Below, piece after piece: positions 47,666 to 60,193 of a stretch of 64,000 nucleotides of DNA. Both the position numbers and the translations under genes were made by a program. The notes beneath the pieces are model-generated. The model did no database searches. It saw nothing but the letters and a program-made list of their open reading frames with translations, and was not told the DNA's origin. The DNA is from Bryobacterales bacterium (GTDB lineage: Bacteria > Acidobacteriota > Terriglobia > Bryobacterales > Bryobacteraceae), in NCBI GenBank assembly GCA_003166865.1, contig PMUP01000097.1, positions 62,001 through 126,000 on the forward strand, given 5' to 3'. Within the stretch, counting starts at the first letter, position 1. Every line of letters begins with the position of its first letter.

Positions 47666-48289
47666 TCATTGCTTGACGGCGCTGCCGAACTTCGGTCCAC
47701 TTCCGCCGCAATGGACGTACCCGAGCTGCAGAGCCGGCAGACGCAGAGCCCAACTCGGCTGGGCGCCCGCATGACCGGAAGGTGGATACTTCGAAACTGC
47801 GGTGAGAGCCTCCGTCAGATCGTTTAAACTCAGATCGCTCCTGGCTAGGGCGCAGCCGGCCCAGGCATCCGCGCGCAGCTCCGGCGTCCAGCCGCTCTTC
47901 ATCCAGCTAGCTGGGTAAACTTCGTCCAGAGCATGGCCGTATTCGTGGGCGATGATCGCGATGATGGCGCCATCACCATACTTGTCATAGACCGCCGTGA
48001 AGAACTGTGGCGCGTACACAAACTTCGCCTGATCGGCCGTTACCACCAGCATGGCATTGGGCGCGGTGGCGTTGCGGAATATCGCGATCTGAGGGCACTT
48101 CGGCGAGCAAGTTGGCGACAGCGCAGCGTTCATGCGTCCGGCCAGTTGCATAGCGTCGCCGGTGGGGCGCTCATCGGCTTTAGCATCGTAGGAAGAAGCG
48201 CCGGACCCTAGCGCGCACAAAACTTCCGCGCTTGCGCTGAAGGAGAAAAGGAACGCGCAGAGGAGTCCCACGCTAAACGTTGTCCCCAT
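47666..48289 (-). CDS. Secreted zinc metallopeptidase-like protein (HExxH)
   Basis: A 207-residue exported protein (signal LLCAFLFSFSASAEV). The core reads AIIAHEYGHALDEVYPASWM, then WTPELRADAWAGCALARSDL. The HEYGH zinc-binding motif and ELRADAW downstream, where a third acidic ligand is expected, suggest a gluzincin-like peptidase. Relatives assigned to a specific family are not clear to me. Four other cysteines may form disulfides. Its ATG shares a base with the stop of the MFS-spermidine synthase gene upstream, so it is in that operon. Confidence 0.7.
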   Translation of the reverse strand: MGTTFSVGLLCAFLFSFSASAEVLCALGSGASSYDAKADERPTGDAMQLAGRMNAALSPTCSPKCPQIAIFRNATAPNAMLVVTADQAKFVYAPQFFTAVYDKYGDGAIIAIIAHEYGHALDEVYPASWMKSGWTPELRADAWAGCALARSDLSLNDLTEALTAVSKYPPSGHAGAQPSWALRLPALQLGYVHCGGSGPKFGSAVKQ

Positions 48290-50829
48290 CAGAACGTGCG
48301 GTGTGGCCGCCCAATCAATTCATGCAACGCGTTCACGCCCGCGCCACTTCCCACCAGCAAGTCGTCGGGAAACTTGCGGTACGACAAAACCTCGCGATAA
48401 ACCTGCGGAGCGGACACCGAGTTCAGCGCCAGTCCCGCCATGTACTGCAAGCGCATATTCAGATCGTCATTGATCTGAGCGTTGGCTAACATCGGCGCAA
48501 GGTCTGAGGCGCGGCCCGCGTAGGTTGCGAGCAAATCAACGGCAGAATGGAACTCGACGCCGGCCAGCGACGCCGACACCGCGGAGTAGCTGGGCTGGTC
48601 CAGACGCCGCTGCAGCGCATCCATATTGATGCTTGCCCCGGGATTAATGGTCGCCCCGTCCGCACTTCCCAGTAGCACCAGGTCGTACCCGTCGCCGTTC
48701 AAGTAGTTGCTCCAGACCGTCGCGTTGGGAAAGACGCTGAAGAAAGTCGCCAGCTCGGTTTTGACGGTTTCCTCGTCGCTCTCGTAAATCGGCAGCCATT
48801 GCGCGGCTACTCCACCCGGATTCAAATGCCGCTTGACCAACTCATAATATTCCCGGGAGTACAGCGTCGACGTGCCCTTCACCCACGGATGGATCGGATC
48901 GGTGGTGATGACGTCAAACTTCTCCGGTGTGATCAGGATATAGTGCCGGGCGTCGTCGTAGACCACGCGGGCGCGCGGGTCGCGCAGCACGTGGTTATTC
49001 TCTTTACCGAAAAACTCATCGGAGGCGGGCGGAATCAAAGGCTCCAATTCGCAAATCACGATACTCTGGACCTCGGGGTAGGGAACGAAAGCTCCGGATG
49101 TGACTCCCGCGCCGAACCCGACCACCAATACCGAACGGGGCGCAGCATTCATCAGCGCCGGCAAGTGTCCCATCATGCGTTGCAGGCGCATGTCGAGCAG
49201 GGCCGACGAGGCCTCCGATTTTCCGCTCACGTAGAAAAATCTCTGATCGCCTCGCTCCGTGATCACCACCGATGAATTGAGTCCCTCGCCCACGAACACG
49301 GGAGTGGTCTGGGCATCGGTGGCACGATATAGGCCTCGCAAAATAGGCGCGACGCGGCGGCCATACGCGATGGCCTGCCATGGAACGGCGCCCACGGTTG
49401 CGCCCAAGCCCCACGCCAGCACGGCTGCGCAAACCAGCGCGCCTGCAAACGCCATGCGGTTACCCGATGTGGCTTTCCTCGAAACCACCGGCACAACCGC
49501 AACCACCGCGGCCGCTGCCGCCAACCAGATCAATACCTGTTGAGAGCCTTGCGTTCCGATAGCGGGAATCAGCAGCAGACTGAAAGCCAGCGCGCCCACA
49601 ATGGACCCGGCGGTATTGGCCGCGTACACCTCGCCGGTCAATCGTCCGGGATCCTCCCGGTTCGCCGCCGCAGCGGCTAGCGCCAATGGAAAGCTCGCGC
49701 CCCACAGCAGCGTTGCCGGGAAAATGGCGCGTATGCAGCGCGTCAGGTCCAGATCGAAATTGAGCCAGGGATTAATCGCGAGCCACGGATCGACCGGCCA
49801 CCAGGGCAGCACATACGCCAGCGTAAAGGCGGTCCAGGCGATCGCGAGGGCCAGCAGGATCTGGCAGCCGGCCAGCGCTAATTTTGGATCGGGCACGCGA
49901 CGGGCTAAGAAAGAACCGGCGCCGCTGCCAGCCCACAGGCCGGTGAGAAACACGGCCAGAATAATCGAGAAGGTGTAAACCGTCGCGCCCAGCAGCAGCG
50001 AGAGCAGGCGCGTCCACACCACTTCGGCGCCCAGGGCGGTCAGTCCGGAAAACGCAATCGCCGCGTAAACGAACATCACGCCCGGCGCGCGCGTCACCCG
50101 TGTGCCGCGTTCCTCGCCCGGCCAGCGCCCGGTCTGGCTCGCCAGCGCCAGTGCGAGCAATGCCACTCCAACATTGATTGCCGCGGCGGTATACGTCGCG
50201 AAAGCCATGTCGTGCACGCGCAAGAGATAGAACCCGGCAAGAACGCAGCCAGCTACCGCGCCAGCGACGTTGGCGCTATAAAGCAGGCCCAGCCAGGAGA
50301 CGCCTCTGGGCGTGGTTTCCACCCAGCGGGCGATGGCGGGAAGCGAGGCGCCCATCAGAAAAGCAGGAGGAAGCAGGCATGCCGCGCAAACCACGCCGCG
50401 CAGCACCAGTCCCGTTAACCCGGTGCTTGCACCCGCAACGTAAATGCGTGCGATCAAGGGGACGCCGAACAGCGCGATGATCCCGAACGCCGCGACCCCC
50501 AACTCCAGAAGCGCGTAGACGCGCATGGGATGATGCCGCATTGAAACCAGCCTCGGCAAAGCGGCGCTGCCCAGACACAGTCCGCCCATGTAGGCCGCGA
50601 GAAGTAATCCCAGCGATACGGCCGAGGAGCCGATCACCAGTTGCAACAACTGAAACCAGACGATCTCGTAAATCAGCGCGGCGCAACCACTGCCGGCAAA
50701 CAACAGGAGCCAGGGAACCAGATAGCGGTAGCCGCGCTCAACTGCTGGGGTTTCGGCCTGGACCGGTTTGGTTTCGCCCGCCTTGGCTTCCGAAGCTTCC
50801 CGCCGCATCACTGACGAGCGTCTGGACAT
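48289..50829 (-). CDS. Fused MFS-like membrane protein/spermidine synthase-like protein
   Basis: An 846-residue fusion. Residues 35-490 have about 12-14 membrane segments, beginning LVPWLLLFAGSGCAALIYEI. Residues 540-760 form a spermidine-synthase-like Rossmann fold: MGHLPALMNAAPRSVLVVGF, GAGVTSGAFV, ICELEPLIPPA, ARVVYDDARHYILITPEKFD, VITTDPIHPWVKGTSTLYSR. GFGAG and the acidic CELE are the methylthioadenosine/SAM-type site. The DxxH-like DPIHP replaces the usual DSTDP. The true activity of this fusion family is uncertain. It follows the DUF3179 selenoprotein by 48 bp. Confidence 0.88.
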   Translation of the reverse strand: MSRRSSVMRREASEAKAGETKPVQAETPAVERGYRYLVPWLLLFAGSGCAALIYEIVWFQLLQLVIGSSAVSLGLLLAAYMGGLCLGSAALPRLVSMRHHPMRVYALLELGVAAFGIIALFGVPLIARIYVAGASTGLTGLVLRGVVCAACLLPPAFLMGASLPAIARWVETTPRGVSWLGLLYSANVAGAVAGCVLAGFYLLRVHDMAFATYTAAAINVGVALLALALASQTGRWPGEERGTRVTRAPGVMFVYAAIAFSGLTALGAEVVWTRLLSLLLGATVYTFSIILAVFLTGLWAGSGAGSFLARRVPDPKLALAGCQILLALAIAWTAFTLAYVLPWWPVDPWLAINPWLNFDLDLTRCIRAIFPATLLWGASFPLALAAAAANREDPGRLTGEVYAANTAGSIVGALAFSLLLIPAIGTQGSQQVLIWLAAAAAVVAVVPVVSRKATSGNRMAFAGALVCAAVLAWGLGATVGAVPWQAIAYGRRVAPILRGLYRATDAQTTPVFVGEGLNSSVVITERGDQRFFYVSGKSEASSALLDMRLQRMMGHLPALMNAAPRSVLVVGFGAGVTSGAFVPYPEVQSIVICELEPLIPPASDEFFGKENNHVLRDPRARVVYDDARHYILITPEKFDVITTDPIHPWVKGTSTLYSREYYELVKRHLNPGGVAAQWLPIYESDEETVKTELATFFSVFPNATVWSNYLNGDGYDLVLLGSADGATINPGASINMDALQRRLDQPSYSAVSASLAGVEFHSAVDLLATYAGRASDLAPMLANAQINDDLNMRLQYMAGLALNSVSAPQVYREVLSYRKFPDDLLVGSGAGVNALHELIGRPHRTF

Positions 50830-50877: not shown

Positions 50878-52131
50878 TCATCTTGTACTGTTCCCCCAAA
50901 TCGTCGTCTTGGGATTGTAATTCCTCCAGTCGAACCAATAGTCTTTGAGCATGGGAATGCGCTCGAGGCACGCGCCTTTTGCTTTCCCAGAGGTGGCGCA
51001 GCCCTGGAAGTTCCATTCGCTGCCGGTTGCCGCATCCATCATTAGAGCGCTCGGCGGCAGCCCGCCAGGTTTGTTCGCGGTCATGCGATAGAAATCGGGC
51101 ACGCCATCCTCGCCGGGGATTCGGTCGCGGAACGCCCGGACGGATTGCCCATCCGGACCCGCTACAATCAGCACCGGCTCGGCTCCCACGTAACTCTTGA
51201 CCAGCTTCTCCTTGATGACCCGGTCATAGAGAAACGCCCGGCTGGCGCCAGAGTCCTGAATTCCCAGGATTAAATCGCGCGACTGCATTCCATGCTCGGG
51301 AAACTGGATGACGGCCGCCCGATGCGCCATGCGCACATCCCAATCCTTGGCCTCGTATTCGGAGGCGTACTTCGATACTTCCTTGAGCACCGTGCCCCCA
51401 GGCTCTTCCGCTTTCCAAGTCGCGAAAGTAAGCTCATCGGAGAGTACCAGGGTGAGCTGCCGGCCCTTCAGCGGACCAGAGATGGCAAGGCCGCTGATCT
51501 GCTGCCAATAGCTCCCTGTCTCCTCGTCGCGCATGAGGAAGTTCTGATTGTTGATGCCGGCCAGATGAAACGTCAGCCGCCGGCCATCCACATCTCTCAT
51601 CCACACCAGACCGGTGTGACAGAGCGTTCAATACGTCGCAGCCAGCGCCGTCCCTCCGACCACGTCGTTGACGATATGGTGGTAACCCATTTCGCGGATC
51701 GGGTAGGCGCGCGCGCTGCCGCCGATCTTTACCACGATCAGCTTGTCATCGTTATCGAGCTTTACGTCAGTAGCCGCGGCGAATGTGGGATGTTCAACCT
51801 GGTGGAACATCAGGTCTTCGTATACATTCACGCGCGCCAGCACCGCCAGGACGCACACCAACATGGCGCCCGCTGCCGCCAACATGCGCCGCCACATTTG
51901 AGCTTGTGCGCGCCAGTACGCAATCGCAGCCGCCACAGCCGCCAGCGCTGACACCACGGTGAGTGCGGGCCGAAAGCGGGAAACCGCGAGCGCCGCCGTC
52001 AGCTCCCGCGCTCCCTGGGCGCGGAACGGCCGGATGACGTACAAGGGGTACGCGACCGCGACCAAGGACACAGCCAGGCAGGCCAGCAATACGAGAATCC
52101 ACCGTCGGTCCGAACGTTTCATGTCGCTCAT
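50878..52131 (-). CDS. Membrane-anchored DUF3179 selenoprotein (UxxC), read through UGA
   Basis: Read as one gene of 417 residues with an in-frame UGA (51630-51628) as selenocysteine 168. Three membrane segments (about 12-32, 55-72, 83-100) precede a periplasmic DUF3179 domain: YHHIVNDVVGGTALAATY, then U-T-L-C-HTGLVW. Relatives have CxxC here, as in TYCPLC. After the UGA the frame continues for 249 residues with family text (GCATSGKAKGACLERI, YWFDWRNYNPKTTIWG). A 6-bp hairpin with loop GGUCU lies 15 nt past the UGA. It is 15 bp behind the AhpD-like selenoprotein. Without readthrough one gets two fragments (51628-52131 and 50878-51606). Function of DUF3179 is unknown. Confidence 0.88.
51602..51618 (-). 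promoter_or_regulatory. Bacterial SECIS hairpin of the DUF3179 gene
   Basis: CACACC-GGTCT-GGTGTG on the minus strand: six perfect pairs plus a flanking T-G wobble, five-base loop. The loop begins 15 nt after the UGA. GGUCU is the apical-loop sequence of the E. coli fdhF SECIS recognised by SelB. Distance, stem length and the guanines at the loop start fit the bacterial consensus. Confidence 0.88.
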
Positions 52132-52146
52132 TTTCTCACACTCGGC

Positions 52147-52794
52147 CTATTTCCTGACATACCCAACAGTGGCGGACCGCTTAGCGTTCTGGCGGTGCGC
52201 CTCGTCTGACAACGCGTGAACTCCGCTGGCATCGATCCAGCGATTGTAGAAGTTGAAGAGCGCGCACACGGTTATGGCGTAGTAGATTGCATCATCTTCC
52301 CAACCCGCCGCGTGCAAGGTTTCCATGTTACTCGGTGTGATGCTAATTGAGTGACCATTCACTCGGTCGACGAAGCGGAAAAGCGCCTTCTCCTTTTCGG
52401 TCAGCCCGGACGTTTCCAAATCGCGAATCACGCCGGAGACGAACGCTTCAGCGTCCATGTCCGCGTCAGATGCCTGCTTCAACAGAACCGCCGCGACCGC
52501 GGCGTGGGCCTTCAGTCAAAATGGACATTCATTGCGGGCCGAGGTGAAGGCAGCTATCAACTCTCGAATCCACGGACTGAGCGGAGCCGGCTCGCGCATG
52601 ATCTCCTGCGTAAAGCGCGCAAGATGATCGGTCGCATGCGGCTTAAAGGCGAACATGTGCCAGATTTGCGGGTACTCGCCGGCGGCTTGCATCATGCGCA
52701 GCGCATCGGCGTATGGTCCGGGCTGCGGATTCTTCTCCACGCCGGGAAGAAACATTGGCTCCATTTTGGCGGCTGTTTTATCGTTATCGCTCAT
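52147..52794 (-). CDS. AhpD-like/peroxidase-related selenoprotein (CxxU), read through UGA
   Basis: Read as one gene of 215 residues starting at ATG 52794 (GGAG six bases before) with an in-frame UGA at 52518-52516 as selenocysteine 93. The context ARNE-C-P-F-U-LKAHAAVA is the AhpD/peroxidase-related active site R-N-x-C-x-x-C-x-x-x-H, with the second cysteine replaced. The frame continues over the UGA for 122 residues with no stop, including DASGVHALSDEAH near the end. A GC hairpin with loop GGUC follows 17 nt after. AhpD-like selenoproteins are known. Read conventionally it is two ORFs (52516-52794, 52147-52482). A redox or peroxide-reducing role is likely. Confidence 0.9.
52489..52504 (-). 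promoter_or_regulatory. Bacterial SECIS hairpin of the AhpD-like gene
   Basis: CGCCGC-GGTC-GCGGCG on the minus strand: six perfect G-C pairs closing a GGUC tetraloop that starts 17 nt after the UGA. E. coli fdhF has its GGUCU loop 18 nt after the UGA, so position and loop sequence agree closely. Confidence 0.88.
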
Positions 52795-52860
52795 GTTGCA
52801 CTCCATGTGAATTGTACTCCATCAAAGACCGGCGGCTGGTGTACACTGATAGGGATCTAG

Positions 52861-55560
52861 ATGCGCCGCCTAGCAGCATGGGGACTGATTCTGTTGGCCG
52901 TGAACGGTGCTTATTTGGCCGCTTTCGCGCACGCCACCATTTTCTATGAAGCCAATGTCATGCTTCATCTCGCGCTGGGCTTGGCGCTGGCGTTGGTTGC
53001 AGCGCGCTATGTGCGCCGCTATCCGATGGAATGCGGGATCTTCCTGGCCGCCGCTCTCGTCGCCATATATCTTGTCTTCCGAGGCAACACGTATGATCAG
53101 CGCGGGGTATTGTGGCTGCATATCTTGCTCGCTGAAATCGCGCTGGCAATCATCGGCTGGCGCTTCATTCGCGCTCGTGCAGGCGTTGCTGCCATTGCCG
53201 CCCTCGGCGTTCTCGTGCTTCTTCCGATCGTCCCGTGGCCGCGGGCTGTCGAGCGGATCACGAATCCAAAGAGCGCGCCGCTCTCCATGGACTTGGAAGG
53301 CGCCGGCGCACGCTCTCCCTTCGCGCCCTCTTCGGCGCAGACCAATACCGGCAAGATTATTCCCTCGAACTTTTTCATGGACTCGGCGGGCTGCGGCCGC
53401 TGCCACAAGGACATTTACGAACAGTGGAAAAGCTCAACGCATCATTTTGCTTCGTTCAATAATCAGTTCTACCGGAAGTCCATCGAATACATGCAGGACG
53501 TCGCCGGTACCCGCCCCAGCAAGTGGTGCGCCGGTTGCCACGACCACGCCGTGTTCTTCAATGGCCGCTTCGACCGGCCCATCAAGGAGCAGATCGACAC
53601 TCCGGAAGCCCAAGCCGGGCTCGGCTGCATGTCCTGTCACGCCATCGTGCACGTGGGCGGCTCCATGGGCAACGCCGATTTCACCGTTGAATATCCTCCG
53701 CTGCATGAGCTGGCATCGAGTGAGAACCCTTTCATTCAAGCGATGGACCGCTTTCTGATCTATCTCAACCCGAAGCCTCACCGGGCGACATTTCTCAAGC
53801 CGTTCATGCGCGAACAGGCGGCGGAATTTTGCGCGTCTTGTCACAAGGTGCATTTGGACGTGCCGGTGAACAGTTATCGGTGGGTGCGGGGGTTTGACGA
53901 TTACGACAACTGGCAGGCTAGCGGAGTCTCAGGGCAAGGCGCGCGCTCGTTTTACTATCCGACCAAATCGCAATCCTGCGCGGATTGTCACATGCCCCTT
54001 GTGGCGTCGCACGACCCCGGCAATCGCGAAGGCCAGGTGCACTCGCATCGTTTTCCCGGCGCAAATACAGCCGTGGCGTTCGCGAATCACGATGACTCTC
54101 AATTGAAGGCTGAGGAAGACTTCCTGAAATCCGGTTTTATCACAGTGGACATTTTCGCGGCGTCGCCAGCCTCGGATCACACCGGAACTACGGCCATGCA
54201 TCGACGCAACGACTCTCCCCAAACCAACACCACCTTTGCAGTTGGCGAAGAGGCCGAGCAGCAAGGCGATGTGACAATTCGCGAGGTCGGCAACATCGCG
54301 GCCCCGCTCGATTCTTCCGGCGCGAAGCTGGAGCCCGGTAGTACCGTGCGTGTGGATGTCGTGGTGAGAACTAGAAAGATCGGACATTTTTTCCCGGGCG
54401 GCACCGTGGATGCCTTCGACGCGTGGTTGGAATTACAGGCGCGGGATGGCGATGGGCGCATGATTTTCTGGAGCGGGAATGTCACGGATGGCGGGCGAGG
54501 GCCGGTGGAACCTGGCGCGCATTTCTATCGCTCCTTTCAGCTCGACGGCGACGGCAATCCCATCGACAAGCGAAACGCCTGGCAGACGCGGAGCCTGCTG
54601 TATGTAAGACTCATCCCGCCCGGCGCGGCCGACGTGGCCCATTATCTGGTTCGCGTCCCCAAGGACGCGCACGGGCCCTTGCAGTTCACCGCGCGGCTGA
54701 ACTATCGGAAGTTTGCCTGGTATTACACGCAATTCGCGTACGGCGCGCGCGCGAAAGCGGGGCAAGATCCGCACCTGCTGACGATCGACCACAACGGTTT
54801 GGACTATGAATTTGGCCCGCAATTCATTCCAGCCAACGTCTCGGGAGCAATTCGCGATCGAATTCCCGATCTTCCGATCGTGACGCTCGCGGAAGCGAAT
54901 GCCACGGTTCCTCTCGGCGAGCCATCTTGGTCGCCCGCCGTTCGCCAAAAAGATCGCGAGCGCTGGAACGACTGGGGCATCGGTCTATTGCTGCAAGGCG
55001 ATCTCAAGGGCGCCGAATATGCGTTCCGCAAAGTCACCGAGGCCGAGCCGGGCTATGCCGACGGCTGGCTGAACCTTGCTCGAGCGTTGATCCAGGAAGG
55101 TGAGACCGATGCCGCGAAGCCCGACATCGCCAAGGCGCTTCAAATCGCTCCCCAATTTGGGCGCTCGTGGTTCTTCAAGGCCGCGATCCAGAAGGCGGAT
55201 GGCGACTACGACGGCGCGCTGCAATCGCTCGACCGCGTTCGCTCCCAATATCCGCGCGATCGCGTGGTGTTGAACCAGATCGCCCGGCTTTTATTTCTGA
55301 AGCGTCAGTACACGCAGGCCATCGAAGCGCTGCGAGCCGTGAATGCCGTGGATCCGGAAGATGTTCAGATGCACTACACCTGGATGCTGGCGGCTCGCGG
55401 TCTTGGAGACACGGCCTCCGCGCAGCGCGAGGAACAGCTCTTCCGCCGGTTCAAAGCCGAAGAAGCTTCGCAGGCGCTGACTGCGCGCCGGCGCGCCGCT
55501 AGCCCCGAAGACAACAATGAGCGGCAGCCGATCCACGATCACGAGAGCGCAATCAAATGA
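52861..55560 (+). CDS. Membrane-anchored five-haem cytochrome c with TPR domain
   Basis: An 899-residue fusion. About five N-terminal membrane segments (residues 5-125) lead to a cytochrome region with five CxxCH sites: C178GRCH, C223AGCH, C256MSCH, C324ASCH and C373ADCH. This resembles cytochrome c554-like multihaem domains. A beta-rich region follows (450-660), then TPR repeats (700-870: AEYAFRKVTEAEPGYADGWL, ALQSLDRVRSQYPRDRVVLN). It probably transfers electrons at the outer face of the inner membrane, with the TPRs binding partners encoded downstream. It is divergent from the selenoprotein operon (66 bp between starts) and overlaps the next gene by ATGA. Confidence 0.9.
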   Translation: MRRLAAWGLILLAVNGAYLAAFAHATIFYEANVMLHLALGLALALVAARYVRRYPMECGIFLAAALVAIYLVFRGNTYDQRGVLWLHILLAEIALAIIGWRFIRARAGVAAIAALGVLVLLPIVPWPRAVERITNPKSAPLSMDLEGAGARSPFAPSSAQTNTGKIIPSNFFMDSAGCGRCHKDIYEQWKSSTHHFASFNNQFYRKSIEYMQDVAGTRPSKWCAGCHDHAVFFNGRFDRPIKEQIDTPEAQAGLGCMSCHAIVHVGGSMGNADFTVEYPPLHELASSENPFIQAMDRFLIYLNPKPHRATFLKPFMREQAAEFCASCHKVHLDVPVNSYRWVRGFDDYDNWQASGVSGQGARSFYYPTKSQSCADCHMPLVASHDPGNREGQVHSHRFPGANTAVAFANHDDSQLKAEEDFLKSGFITVDIFAASPASDHTGTTAMHRRNDSPQTNTTFAVGEEAEQQGDVTIREVGNIAAPLDSSGAKLEPGSTVRVDVVVRTRKIGHFFPGGTVDAFDAWLELQARDGDGRMIFWSGNVTDGGRGPVEPGAHFYRSFQLDGDGNPIDKRNAWQTRSLLYVRLIPPGAADVAHYLVRVPKDAHGPLQFTARLNYRKFAWYYTQFAYGARAKAGQDPHLLTIDHNGLDYEFGPQFIPANVSGAIRDRIPDLPIVTLAEANATVPLGEPSWSPAVRQKDRERWNDWGIGLLLQGDLKGAEYAFRKVTEAEPGYADGWLNLARALIQEGETDAAKPDIAKALQIAPQFGRSWFFKAAIQKADGDYDGALQSLDRVRSQYPRDRVVLNQIARLLFLKRQYTQAIEALRAVNAVDPEDVQMHYTWMLAARGLGDTASAQREEQLFRRFKAEEASQALTARRRAASPEDNNERQPIHDHESAIK

Positions 55561-57233
55561 GGGGTTGGGGATTGGGGATTGGCGTCCTGGCGGGCGCTCT
55601 TTTTGTGGGAGGTGCTAAAGCCCCCGAGAGTGGAATCACCTTCACCGATGTGACCGCTCAGGCCGGCATCCATTTCACGCATAACAGCGGCCGGGCAGGC
55701 AAGAAGTACTTGCCCGAAACGCTCGGCTCCGGCTGCGCTTTCTTCGATGCCGATGGCGACGGCTGGCCCGACATCCTGCTGATCAACGGCAAGGACTGGA
55801 CACCCGGCGGCCGGAAGTCTCTGCCGGCTCTCTATCACAACAATCACAACGGGACCTTCACCGACATCACGCGCGGCAGCGGCCTCGACATCGAAATGTA
55901 CGGAATGGGCGTGGCCATCGGCGACTACGACAATGATGGACGCGACGACGTGTACATCACGGCGCTCGACGGCGATCATCTTTTTCACAACGAGGGTAAT
56001 GGGAAATTTCGCGATGTGACCAAGGCCGCGGGCATTCAAAACGCGAGCTTCGGCACCAGCGCGGCATGGGTCGATTTCGATCGCGACGGCAAACTGGACC
56101 TCTTCGTTGCGAACTATGTGCAGTGGAGCCCCAAGCAGGATCTTTGGTGCTCGCTCGATGGCGCGACCAAATCCTACTGCACTCCCGAATCGTACAAGGG
56201 CACGCGTTGCAGGCTATTTCACAATCTCGGCGGCGGCCGTTTCGAAGATGTCGCCGAAAAGGCGGGCGTGGCCGATCCCACCAGCAAGTCTTTGGGCGTA
56301 GCGGTCCTGGACTACAACGGCGACGGCTGGCCGGACATCTTCGTCGCCAACGACACGCAGCCCAACAAGCTGTATCGGAACAACCGGAATGGAACTTTCA
56401 GCGAAGAAGGCATGTCGGCCGGAGTGGCGTACGGCGAAGAGGGAGTGGCTCGCGGCGCGATGGGCGCCGATTCCGCCGATTACGACCGCAGTGGACGAGC
56501 GCATTTGCTGGTCGGCAACTTTTCCAACCAGATGCTGGGCTTGTATCACAACGAAGGCAACGGGCTGTTCGTAGACGAGGCGCCTTCTTCCACCGTGGGA
56601 CGATCCAGCCTGCTTTCCTTAACGTTCGGTGTATTCTTCTTCGACTATGATCTCGACGGCTATCCCGATATCTTTACCGCCAACGGCCACATCGATGAAC
56701 AAATCGGCCGCGTGCAGCCCAAGGTAAGTTACCGGGAAGCCCCGTTGCTGTTTCGCAATCTGGGCGATCATCATTTCGCGAATGTGACAGCCGCGATGGG
56801 CGCCGCTTTCAATCGACCAATTGTCGGGCGTGGAGCCGCCTACGCGGATTTCGATCGCGATGGCGACCTGGACCTTCTCATTTCCACCAACGATGGACCC
56901 GCCTACCTATACCGCAATGACGGCGGCAATCGCAATCACTGGCTCACCATTCGGCTGTCGGGCACCAAGAGCAATCGAGATGGCATTGGCGCCGTGATTC
57001 GGCTACAAAGCGCTTCCGGCAAACAGTCGAACATGGTGCACAGTGGGTCCAGCTATTGTTCGCAGAGCGATCTAGCGGCGACGTTTGGTCTGGGGAAGGA
57101 CACATCGGCATCCATCGAGATCGAGTGGCCCAGCGGAACCAAACAGTCGATCGGCAATGTGGCCGCCAATCAGTTTTTGACGATTGATGAAAGCCGCGGC
57201 ATGATCGCACGAGAGCCTCCAGCCGCGCGCTAG
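55557..57233 (+). CDS. CRTAC1-like FG-GAP/ASPIC-UnbV protein
   Basis: A 558-residue exported protein (signal LGIGVLAGALFVGGAKA). It has repeated FG-GAP/VCBS calcium-binding blades, with DADGDGWPDILLIN, DYDNDGRDDVYITALDGD, DFDRDGKLDLFVAN, DYNGDGWPDIFVAN and DFDRDGDLDLLIST. A C-terminal ASPIC/UnbV domain follows (NHWLTIRLSGTKSNRDGIGA, SIEIEWPSGTKQSIGNV). Such proteins form a surface beta-propeller with unknown ligand. Coupled by ATGA overlap to the multihaem cytochrome and by 2 bp to the next gene. Confidence 0.92.
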   Translation: MRGWGLGIGVLAGALFVGGAKAPESGITFTDVTAQAGIHFTHNSGRAGKKYLPETLGSGCAFFDADGDGWPDILLINGKDWTPGGRKSLPALYHNNHNGTFTDITRGSGLDIEMYGMGVAIGDYDNDGRDDVYITALDGDHLFHNEGNGKFRDVTKAAGIQNASFGTSAAWVDFDRDGKLDLFVANYVQWSPKQDLWCSLDGATKSYCTPESYKGTRCRLFHNLGGGRFEDVAEKAGVADPTSKSLGVAVLDYNGDGWPDIFVANDTQPNKLYRNNRNGTFSEEGMSAGVAYGEEGVARGAMGADSADYDRSGRAHLLVGNFSNQMLGLYHNEGNGLFVDEAPSSTVGRSSLLSLTFGVFFFDYDLDGYPDIFTANGHIDEQIGRVQPKVSYREAPLLFRNLGDHHFANVTAAMGAAFNRPIVGRGAAYADFDRDGDLDLLISTNDGPAYLYRNDGGNRNHWLTIRLSGTKSNRDGIGAVIRLQSASGKQSNMVHSGSSYCSQSDLAATFGLGKDTSASIEIEWPSGTKQSIGNVAANQFLTIDESRGMIAREPPAAR

Positions 57234-57235
57234 CC

Positions 57236-60193
57236 ATGCAGCAAATCTTGCGTAAAAAGTTGCGCTCCGAGCGCCTCTTGTTGATAATATTCCTCCTGGC
57301 GGGGGCGTGTTCCAAACCGCGTAATCAGAACCTGCTAGAGCAGCACCGCAATCTCGGCAAAGCGTTCTATGAGAATCCCACCACCCAACAACAAGCGGTC
57401 CAGGAGTTTCAGCAGGCACTCGCAATCGCACCCGATTCCGCACGCGACAAGCTGAACTATGCGCTCGCGTTGCTCAAGGTACCAGGGCACGAAGAGGAAG
57501 CCACAAAGCTTTTGCAAGAGGTGCAGCGCCAGGATCCCTCGCTGCCGCACACTTGGTTCAACCTCGGGATCTACTATAAGCGTCAGGGCGACGCGACGAA
57601 AGCGATCGCGCAATTCTTGGGGCTGCTCGCGCGAACGCCGGACGAGGCGATCGCGCACTATCAACTGGGCACCCTGTACAAGCAAATGAACCGGCGCAAT
57701 GAAGCGCAGGCTCAATTCGAAAAAGCTGCCGAGCTGGATCCGTTGCTGGCGGCCGCGCGGTTCCAACTCTACAACCTGAACCGGCTGGAGGGAAACACCG
57801 AGCAAGGGAATCGCTACCTCGCCGATTTCGAGCACCTCCAAAAATTGCAGAAAAGCTGGGTGATCCCGGAGAACGTGGAGTGGTGCAACTACGCGGAAAT
57901 CTACGACCCGCCGGAGGCTCGCGTGGAAGCAGCAGCTCCGCCGGAACCGAAGTTCGCAGACACGCGCCTCGAGGGAACGGTGGATCCAGCAACCGCGGGC
58001 CTGACCTTAATCGACTCCACTGGCAGCGGCCAAACCGATCTTCTGGTGTGGTCTTCGCAAGGAATCCGTTTGTTCCTCAAGGGGCAGCGCCCCGCCAACG
58101 ACACGGGCCTGGAAGGACTGACCGGCGTGATCGACGTGGCTCCGGGCGACTTTGATAATGACGGCCTGATGGATCTCTGCGTGCTGACGACGGCCGGTCC
58201 GGTTCTGTATCGCAATACAGGCGGCAAATTCGTCCGGTACCCGGCGAAGCTTCTCACCGGGCGCTTCGATGCCGCCGTGTGGATGGACGTCGATCACGAT
58301 TACGACCTCGATCTCATCCTGCTAGGACCGCAGCCGGCGCTAATGCGGAATCAGGGAGCGGCGGGATGGGCGGATCGGACCGAGGATTTCCCGTTTGTGA
58401 AAGGCACGGTCACCTCAGCCCGAAAGCTGCGCGTCATTCCCGACAGCAAGGCTTTCGATCTGGCCGTGTTCTACCGTGATCGCGCACCGGTGCTGTATCG
58501 CGATCAACTGGGCGGCAGATATACAGTGGAAGCTTTCAACGGACGTCCCGCTGCGAATGGGATGCAAGTGGATGCCGACTTCGACGCAACCGGGCGGCTG
58601 GACCGTGCCCGCATCGATGCCGACGGCAGCATTCATTTCTTGCGCAGTCAAAGCGAGCAAGGCCACTGGATCCGTGTTCAGCTCAAGGGCGTGCGAAGTC
58701 TCAAGCTGGCGCAGGGTGCGTTGGTCGAGATGAAGGTTGGAACTCTATACCGCCGCCAGTTCTACAACGGCGTGCCGCTGACCTTCGATGCGGGAGACCA
58801 TACTTCCGTCGATGTCATTCGCATCACTTGGCCGAACGGGCTGATCCAGAACGAAGTCCAGCAAGCGACGAATCAGACGCATATTTATCAGGAAGCGCAA
58901 CGATTGTCCGGCTCCTGCCCGATGATCTGGACCTGGAACGGGCGCGAGTTCGAGTTCATTACCGATGTTCTGGGAGTGGCTCCGCTGGGCGCTCGCGATG
59001 GCGATGGAAGTTACTTCCCGGTGGATCATGAGGAGTACGTGCAGATTCCCGGCGCGGCGCTTCAGCCCATAAACAACCAGTATGAAGTTCGCGTCACCGA
59101 AGAATTGAGCGAAGTGTCGTATCTCGATCAGATCCAGTTGTACGCCGTCGATCATCGTACCGGCACTGAGATCTTCACCAACGAAAAGTTCAAGGGTCCT
59201 CCCTACCCCGAGTTCCGCCTGTTCAGTGTCGAGCGAAGGATCTATCCCAAAACCGCGCTCGACGACCACGGCGCGGATGTGTTGCCGCAATTGATCGCCA
59301 AGGATCAGCGTTATCCGGATCATTTCCGCCGTTCCGAAACGGGCGTGGCGGATCTGCATTCACTCGATCTGGATTTCGGCGACCCTGCCGGTAGGGTGGC
59401 CCCGTCCGGCAAGGCGATCCTGTTGCTGAACGGATGGGTGGATTGGCCCGATGGCAGCACCTTCCGCAGGGCCTCACAGGAGTCGGAGCCTGGCTTGGTG
59501 ATGCCGTATCTCCAGGTGCAGGACGCCGCCGGCGCCTGGAAAACCGTGAATCCAGATATGGGCATGCCGGCCGGAAAGCCCAAGACGATCGTGGTCCCAG
59601 TCGAGTTTCTTTCGGCGAGCCGCAAGGTCCGAATCGTCACCAATCTATGCGTCTATTGGGATGAGATCTTCTTGAGTGAGGGTGCTTCGGATGCTCAAGT
59701 GAAGCCCACTCTCATCCCCTTTGACTCCGCCAATCTGCATTTTCGCGGATTCTCGGAGACGCGCATTCACCCGCAGCGCAAACAGCCCGATACATTCTTC
59801 TACGATCATGTTTCCGCGGCTTCCTTCTGGAATCCCACTCCGGGCCTCTATACAAGATTCGGCCGGGTGGACAACCTGCTGCGCGACGTCGACGACCAAC
59901 TCGTGATCATGGGCTCGGGCGACGAGGTGCGCTTGCAGTTCCCCGTGGCCGCTCTTCAAGCACTACCTGCTGGATGGACCCGCGACTTCCTGCTCAAGGT
60001 GGACGGCTGGGCCAAGGATCGCGATCCGAACACCGCCTTCTCTTCCACTGTTCAACCGCTCCCGTTCCATGGGATGTCCCGGTATCCGTATCCGGCGAGC
60101 GAACACTTCCCTCGGGACGCCGTGCACGATTCCTACCAACGCACCTACAACACCCGGCCCGCGCTGGTGTTGCTCCAGCCACTGCAGCCATGA
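57236..60193 (+). CDS. Lipoprotein with TPR, FG-GAP and ASPIC/UnbV domains
   Basis: A 985-residue protein. The N-terminus has a lipobox (LLLIIFLLAGAC, Cys near 28). TPR repeats span about 45-190 (AVQEFQQALAIAPDSARDKL, AIAQFLGLLARTPDEAIAHY). FG-GAP-like repeats lie at 235-420 (DFDNDGLMDLCVL, DVDHDYDLDLILLG). An ASPIC/UnbV segment follows (470-560, VDVIRITWPNGLIQNEV). The last 400 residues (FITDVLGVAPLGARDGDGSY onward) have no motif I know. It shares repeat types with both upstream partners, suggesting a single envelope complex. It overlaps the amidase start by ATGA. Confidence 0.88.
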   Translation: MQQILRKKLRSERLLLIIFLLAGACSKPRNQNLLEQHRNLGKAFYENPTTQQQAVQEFQQALAIAPDSARDKLNYALALLKVPGHEEEATKLLQEVQRQDPSLPHTWFNLGIYYKRQGDATKAIAQFLGLLARTPDEAIAHYQLGTLYKQMNRRNEAQAQFEKAAELDPLLAAARFQLYNLNRLEGNTEQGNRYLADFEHLQKLQKSWVIPENVEWCNYAEIYDPPEARVEAAAPPEPKFADTRLEGTVDPATAGLTLIDSTGSGQTDLLVWSSQGIRLFLKGQRPANDTGLEGLTGVIDVAPGDFDNDGLMDLCVLTTAGPVLYRNTGGKFVRYPAKLLTGRFDAAVWMDVDHDYDLDLILLGPQPALMRNQGAAGWADRTEDFPFVKGTVTSARKLRVIPDSKAFDLAVFYRDRAPVLYRDQLGGRYTVEAFNGRPAANGMQVDADFDATGRLDRARIDADGSIHFLRSQSEQGHWIRVQLKGVRSLKLAQGALVEMKVGTLYRRQFYNGVPLTFDAGDHTSVDVIRITWPNGLIQNEVQQATNQTHIYQEAQRLSGSCPMIWTWNGREFEFITDVLGVAPLGARDGDGSYFPVDHEEYVQIPGAALQPINNQYEVRVTEELSEVSYLDQIQLYAVDHRTGTEIFTNEKFKGPPYPEFRLFSVERRIYPKTALDDHGADVLPQLIAKDQRYPDHFRRSETGVADLHSLDLDFGDPAGRVAPSGKAILLLNGWVDWPDGSTFRRASQESEPGLVMPYLQVQDAAGAWKTVNPDMGMPAGKPKTIVVPVEFLSASRKVRIVTNLCVYWDEIFLSEGASDAQVKPTLIPFDSANLHFRGFSETRIHPQRKQPDTFFYDHVSAASFWNPTPGLYTRFGRVDNLLRDVDDQLVIMGSGDEVRLQFPVAALQALPAGWTRDFLLKVDGWAKDRDPNTAFSSTVQPLPFHGMSRYPYPASEHFPRDAVHDSYQRTYNTRPALVLLQPLQP

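Follow-up and report, generated by a model that had tools for sequence, protein, structure and literature searches.

Selenocysteine in a DUF3179 membrane protein of a Bryobacterales bacterium and a predicted Rieske-like double domain

The window analysed here is a stretch of 64,000 nucleotides from a draft genome of a Bryobacterales bacterium (contig PMUP01000097.1). On its minus strand lies a DUF3179 gene (50878..52131) that raises a simple question: does the TGA in the middle of the frame end the protein, or is it read, and as what? The frame runs from an ATG at 52131 to a terminal TGA ending at 50878 and gives 417 residues when TGA is translated as U. The single internal TGA is codon 168 (51628..51630), in the context AATY-U-TLC-HTGLVW, and it is the U of a UxxC motif. 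The initial annotation had put this codon at the first Cys of the CxxC found in DUF3179 proteins, and both the translation and the Pfam match bear this out. That match (PF11376) spans the TGA, covering residues 112-409 with E 4.8e-62 and 210.5 bits against a cut-off of 27; a search of the protein against NCBIfam 20.0 returned no DUF3179 model. Between the window gene and 8 relatives, dN/dS on the 3' side of the UGA is 0.11-0.20, and the segment beyond the UGA is therefore maintained as protein. The gene is the one DUF3179 gene found in the host genome (6.67 Mb, 107 contigs).

The family as such is not new to selenocysteine (Sec). The initial annotation had raised that possibility, which falls because a "DUF3179 domain-containing protein, UxxC/T" is already listed in the prokaryotic selenoprotein family tables of reviews of 2022 and 2026 (PMC9312934, PMC13188914), where Zhang and Gladyshev 2007 (gutless-worm symbiont) is cited for it. 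The window protein has the Pfam domain and the UxxC motif in common with the tabulated family. In the tables the residue three places after Sec is Cys or Thr, while the Acidobacteriota set assembled here also has Ala, Val, Ser and Asp; two hairpin positions and a predicted duplicated Rieske-like fold are further points described below.

The UGA among relatives and the Sec machinery

TGA stands at the aligned codon in 30 of 30 genomes, the window included, in a test that took one locus per genome from the 30 best-scoring of the 52 matching genomes among 150 of the same family. The same match list also contains weaker matches free of stops, and a Cys paralogue. The latter is in a genome (G014) that carries both forms, a Sec gene with the hairpin (L048) and a Cys gene without it (L051). 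When GTDB genome contigs were scanned, 109 loci were confirmed, and in the best 80 of these the Sec column is TGA in 79 and TGC in 1. The titles of all 80 name groups of Acidobacteriota (Bryobacterales, Acidobacteriaceae, Terriglobia, Candidatus Sulfotelmatobacter and others); several come from genomes already searched, and many are shared with the 30-genome test. A wider Acidobacteriota set of 136 placed sequences has 89 TGA, 39 TGC, 7 TGT and 1 AGT at this column, counts that are not to be read as frequencies because 42 regions were chosen for their TGA and 10 as Cys members of the subfamily. The 47 placed homologues that lack TGA thus have Cys in 46 cases, Ser in 1 and Trp in none. On a tree of 82 sequences (81 of 115 non-redundant sequences plus the window; a further subset comprises 79 of the 82), the distribution of Sec and Cys needs 7 changes, at least 5 of which are forced by starred branches; this is a quick tree in which 35 of 79 inner branches are open.

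The host has what is needed to insert Sec. Its genome contains selA (505 bits), selB (375 bits) and selD (366 bits), and a tRNA-Sec with a UCA anticodon at 68.2 bits, on which ARAGORN agrees. Across 40 genomes with a TGA DUF3179 gene, selA is above the cut-off in 36, and the remaining 4 (G030, G059, G112 and G195) have selB above the cut-off and a tRNA-Sec of at least 70.9 bits. The Cys-only genomes, chosen from the match lists as having one listed match each with no stop in it, have selA above the cut-off in 26 of 40, and most of those 26 carry other DUF3179 subfamilies. Within the subfamily of the window gene, recognised by the peptide TLCHTGLVW, none of 10 Cys genomes has selA or selB over the curated cut-offs. 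One of the ten (G279) has a tRNA-Sec match of 51.3 bits at a gathering score of 47, which slightly weakens the contrast, and a TGA-bearing relative of the ten (G233) has selA, selB and tRNA-Sec. As far as genome sequences can tell, Sec use in DUF3179 follows the Sec machinery.

That the gene is a pseudogene or carries a sequencing error, its TGA being an ordinary stop or a misread TGC or TGT, has a negligible probability: a single base separates these codons and the window rests on a single draft assembly, but the same TGA recurs in those 79 loci from many assemblies, the downstream segment is under the constraint given above, the hairpin codons are frozen and the Sec machinery co-occurs. The other way to do without Sec is to have the UGA read through as Trp or Cys, both ordinary residues, or under a changed code. 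The frame would indeed be open whichever residue was inserted. Against this stand a DUF3179 frame that itself terminates with TGA, a column that holds Cys, one Ser and no Trp when it is not TGA, the whole Sec set in the genome, and the 10 subfamily members that use Cys in genomes lacking selA and selB over the cut-offs. We consider such a reading very improbable. The window gene is almost certainly a genuine selenoprotein gene in which the UGA is decoded as Sec. The initial annotation had called it a likely selenoprotein, and the comparison strongly supports Sec insertion through the conservation of the TGA, the selection on the hairpin and the presence of the machinery. It had also named three grounds for giving the idea up, namely no homologue with Cys at this column, no conserved hairpin in relatives and no Sec machinery in the host; all three were examined and none held.

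Hairpins downstream of the Sec codon

A SECIS-like hairpin (51602..51618, minus strand) follows the UGA in the arrangement UGA-ACGCUCUGU-CACACC-GGUCU-GGUGUG. Its perfect 6-bp stem begins 9 nt after the UGA; the stem length, the loop letters and the loop start at 15 nt agree with the initial annotation. The loop GGUCU is that of the Escherichia coli fdhF SECIS, which likewise lies just downstream of a Sec UGA; the protein family and the stem are different, and the window gene has its loop at 15 nt. Taken by itself, the 41-nt segment beginning with the UGA has a minimum free energy of -14.2 kcal/mol (z -1.97), which 12 of 200 dinucleotide shuffles equal or better. In loop, stem and energy this fits the bSECIS consensus as given in PMC13188914, which has an apical loop of 3-9 nt with G in the first two places, an upper stem of 4-16 bp and a minimum free energy of -7.5 kcal/mol or lower. 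The spacing from UGA to loop in that consensus is 16-37 nt (PMC13188914); the 15 nt of the window hairpin with its 5-nt loop is one below the range, and 16 nt is reached by counting a closing G-U pair, which leaves a loop of 3 nt. At gathering thresholds, Rfam gave no match in the window or in L002. Against synonymous-codon shuffles the window hairpin has p ~0.14, which is not significant by itself, and the case therefore rests on comparative evidence. What goes beyond chance is the TGA conserved in relatives, the frozen synonymous sites and the covariation in a sister clade.

The freezing of synonymous sites is seen where Sec and Cys genes encode the same peptide, xxCHTG[LIV]V. The Sec genes (n = 58, including 4 with the other type of hairpin) use CAC in 56/58, ACC in 51/58, GGT in 51/58, CTG in 51/51 and GTG in 54/58; the Cys genes (n = 11) use the same codons in 6/11, 4/11, 1/11, 7/10 and 6/11. 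Of the 90 conserved columns where more than one codon is possible, for which the median modal-codon fraction is 0.61, those of the hairpin codons rank 1, 2, 4, 8 and 9. The helices tell the same story on a larger sample, from which L052, containing Ns, was excluded, as it was from the residue counts. The best downstream helix of 88 TGA genes scores 18.3 on average against 12.9 for synonymous shuffles, with 21 of the 88 at p<0.05, and that of 47 non-TGA genes scores 10.9 against 11.4, with 0/47 at p<0.05. Genes with the hairpin of the window type, called proximal here, score at least 17.6 in 53 of 55 cases, although only 2/55 are individually at p<0.05. The Cys genes with the same peptide score 7.6-13.8 in 10 of 11 cases; L148, also a Cys gene, scores 17.6, and its stem is thus as strong as those of the Sec genes.

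The exact 17-nt hairpin core is present in 71 of the 79 TGA loci of the contig scan. An inner pair is changed from C-G to G-C with compensation and the loop kept in 3 others, the outer pair is lost in 2, a G-U stands in 1, and two pairs are broken in 2. Bryobacterales bacterium F-183 (L230) has the UGA and the hairpin core as in the window gene. A TGA with a hairpin downstream, which the initial annotation had proposed to look for in DUF3179 homologues of other Acidobacteriota, is thus the usual state among the best loci. In the clade of the window gene, 54 distinct rows have 98.9% of cells paired and one pair with a two-sided change, and no covariation in the stem is significant because the stem is almost frozen. 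On this comparison of sequences, selection acts on the hairpin as RNA.

The second major Sec clade, in which UPLx is the usual motif, has its stem ~5 nt further downstream, often with the loop CGUGU. Its 32 distinct rows have 90.6% of cells paired against 75.2% when shuffled, a two-sided change in 25 cells against 5.2, and a covariation score of 0.401 against 0.139; L054 and L066, which have different hairpins of their own, are counted in. The pairing, the number of two-sided cells and the covariation score are each reached by 0 of 500 shuffles, and versions of the stem slid along the alignment score at most 0.118. Two-sided change occurs in 5 of 7 pairs, a count that 70 of 500 shuffles and one slid version also reach. 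Tested one gene at a time, 19/33 hairpins have p<0.05 and 8/33 have p>0.2, and in L083 the minimum-energy fold differs from the covarying stem. Stem covariation, another check that had been proposed, is therefore borne out in the sister clade and not in the clade of the window gene, with its frozen stem. DUF3179 appears to have two main SECIS positions, the loop lying either 15-16 or 20-21 nt after one Sec codon and both overlying the same coding stretch. With two hairpin positions in one family, the SECIS would have either arisen more than once or moved.

A few homologues stand apart from both types. L110 (G382, PLTASGVGYD) and L121 (G485, PLTGSGVGYD) have TGA at the Sec column, and a simple helix scan found no significant hairpin in them; they perhaps have another form of SECIS. 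The very distant TGA homologue L066 (G113, 1185-1226) has the hairpin GGAACUA-GUU-UAGUUCC with its loop 22 nt after the UGA, and is possibly a further Sec lineage.

Predicted fold and the place of the Sec residue

The AlphaFold2 model of the whole protein (pLDDT 95) has three N-terminal helices followed by a beta-rich domain. The helices, at residues 6-32, 41-75 and 79-98 (51838..52116, minus strand, for residues 6-98), would by inspection span the membrane. The remainder is an internal duplication, residues 112-260 aligning with 270-417 at E 1.5e-28. Repeat 1 (51352..51798, minus; modelled with pLDDT 96.4) carries the Sec; repeat 2 (50881..51324, minus) has Gly at the equivalent place, and both are predicted to have a Rieske-like fold.

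This prediction rests first on structural comparison. With the whole model, 47 of the 50 listed VIA rows are Rieske-type chains lying over both repeats (Z 7.1-8.9), and in the other 3 (9umg_F, 8xyv_B and 8yq6_B) it is the membrane part that is matched, by helices. With the model of repeat 1, all 50 listed rows are Rieske-type at Z 9.4-6.4, most over 90-104 residues; examples are 3c0d_C (Z 9.4, rmsd 3.5, 98 aligned) and 7bui_D (Z 9.1, rmsd 2.3, 89 aligned). A small number of proteins account for many of these rows, which were called Rieske-type by title or by the known identity of the entry. Neither set of 50 listed rows includes a thioredoxin-fold chain. Foldseek against the PDB gave no significant match, the best E being 0.035 for the whole model and 0.11 for repeat 1. 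As to sequence, a Rieske profile made from 30 sequences of relatives aligns with repeat 2 at E 0.0011 (probability 20.9%, a single comparison) with box II aligned, against 0.39 and 0.57 for reversed controls. With repeat 1 it gives E 0.14, which is not significant, and the reversed controls give 0.53 and 0.093. Repeat 1 thus does no better than a reversed control, and the sequence therefore supports Rieske likeness for repeat 2 only. A PDB sequence search with the DUF3179 protein found no match at E 0.1, a search with the DUF3179 profile found one, to an alpha/beta hydrolase at E 0.87, and the Pfam scan of the protein found no Rieske match.

The resemblance might then be one of strand arrangement only, the DUF3179 fold being unrelated. 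In favour of this are the Foldseek values, the profile result for repeat 1, and top Z scores of 8-9, near the level that the structure-search tool grades as middling. Against it stand the uniformity of the VIA rows, for repeat 1 alone and over both repeats of the whole model, and the gap between repeat 2 and its reversed controls. We think an unrelated fold rather unlikely and a Rieske-like fold of the DUF3179 repeats, as modelled, probable.

If the fold is Rieske-like, the position of the ligands can be read across. Box II, C-x2-H in Rieske proteins, falls on D202-x2-T205, by the profile alignment of repeat 2 carried to repeat 1 through the alignment of the repeats. Position 202 is D in 82/82 aligned sequences and position 205 is T or S in 82/82. 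Rieske proteins bind their cluster through C-x-H and C-x2-H ligands; at this place the ligands are absent and a [2Fe-2S] cluster is therefore not expected. Sec168 would lie outside the ligand places, on a hairpin turn before the next strand. A hand alignment with Sec at a Rieske ligand position was also considered and was dropped, because in both profile alignments and in the ranges of the structural matches box II falls on D202 and T205, with Sec on the hairpin turn before it. Each DUF3179 repeat is thus predicted to be like Rieske-fold proteins such as Rieske ferredoxins, NirD and the small subunit of arsenite oxidase, and to differ from them in having no cluster ligands, in being duplicated in tandem, and in having Sec or Cys on a turn that appears to be away from the ligand places. 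Nowhere in the open-access literature searched did we find DUF3179 described as Rieske-like, and the word "Rieske" occurs 0 times in PMC13188914. As far as that literature goes, the internal duplication, the predicted Rieske-like repeats without ligands and the predicted placing of Sec on a hairpin turn are apparently unpublished.

Proposed role, neighbouring genes and what the family offers

His151 is kept in 80/82, Asp156 in 77/82 and Trp209 in 81/82 aligned sequences. The residue three places on is Cys in 67/88 Sec genes, the others having Ala (14), Thr (4), Val (1), Asp (1) and Ser (1); it is Cys in 43/46 Cys genes. Since 21/88 Sec genes lack this Cys, a resolving Cys is common and is not required when Sec is present. 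On inspection of every second sequence, a number of homologues start with signal-peptide-like or lipoprotein-like stretches, so that the domain would face the outside.

We propose the following course. The GGUCU hairpin that follows codon 168 would direct SelB with Sec-tRNA to decode its UGA. The product would be anchored by its three N-terminal membrane helices, with two Rieske-like repeats devoid of iron-sulphur ligands presumably facing the outside of the cytoplasmic membrane. Sec168, on the hairpin turn of repeat 1, would be the attacking selenol and Cys171, where present, the resolving thiol; two conserved residues of repeat 1, His151 and Asp202, may help. The most likely reaction would be to reduce or isomerise disulphides, peroxides or similar oxidised substrates. 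Alternatively, the Sec/Cys site could bind a metal, haem or an iron-sulphur cluster and the protein could be an electron carrier or a metal chaperone rather than a thiol or selenol enzyme. The predicted scaffold is after all that of Rieske [2Fe-2S] proteins, a UxxC could bind metal and His151 is nearly invariant, but the box II place holds an invariant Asp and a Thr or Ser, and the Sec genes without the second Cys imply that two S/Se ligands in this motif are not required. Such a binding site seems unlikely to us. For the preferred role, an exported and membrane-anchored selenol/thiol oxidoreductase, we would put the chances at about even. The explanation as a whole, a selenoprotein of a known family with Sec directed by a hairpin, anchored cluster-less Rieske-like repeats and a likely selenol oxidoreductase function, is one that we hold with high confidence.

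The neighbours of the gene do not narrow this down. Upstream, 15 nt before the DUF3179 start, is an AhpD-like gene (52147..52806, minus) with an in-frame UGA at 52518-52516 in the motif CPFU. It scores 80.7 bits with TIGR01926, just under the cut-off of 81.8. Its CPFU is its likeness to the AhpD-like selenoproteins (TIGR01926, CxxU), a family separate from DUF3179 and of a kind already listed in PMC13188914. It is probably a second selenoprotein beside the DUF3179 selenoprotein gene, and the two are perhaps in one operon. Downstream, 48 nt after the DUF3179 stop, a gene for a fused MFS/spermidine-synthase-like protein (48289..50829, minus; NCBIfam MFS_SpdSyn and Pfam Spermine_synth) is perhaps co-transcribed. 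A divergent cluster on the plus strand (52861-60193) encodes a multihaem cytochrome c554-like/TPR protein, followed by proteins carrying FG-GAP and ASPIC/UnbV domains. Flanks of at most 3 kb contain an AhpD-like gene in 6 of the 80 best loci (109 confirmed); its motif is CPFU in 4 and CFFU in 1. In 21 regions (20 relatives and the window) with crude ORF calls, leaving aside the DUF3179 gene and its antisense ORFs, the commonest neighbour cluster occurs in 6/21 and no conserved operon was found. With these two counts no general partner was found, and the neighbourhood in the 21 regions gives no clue to the substrate.

Taken jointly, the results moderately favour DUF3179 as a family of selenoenzymes whose scaffold, a Rieske-like fold in duplicate, has lost its [2Fe-2S] cluster and instead has a selenol, or else a Cys, at the beta3-beta4 turn in repeat 1, and with two SECIS positions that arose separately or by movement while Sec was kept or regained. 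An annotation that does not read UGA as Sec would presumably truncate this gene or label it a pseudogene. The predicted cluster-less Rieske-like double domain, together with the exchange of Sec and Cys, gives a concrete place for the active site. The Cys-using clade that lacks Sec genes is a natural control for that exchange at one column, and the two hairpin positions offer a chance to study the gain, shift or loss of a SECIS over a nearly fixed peptide.
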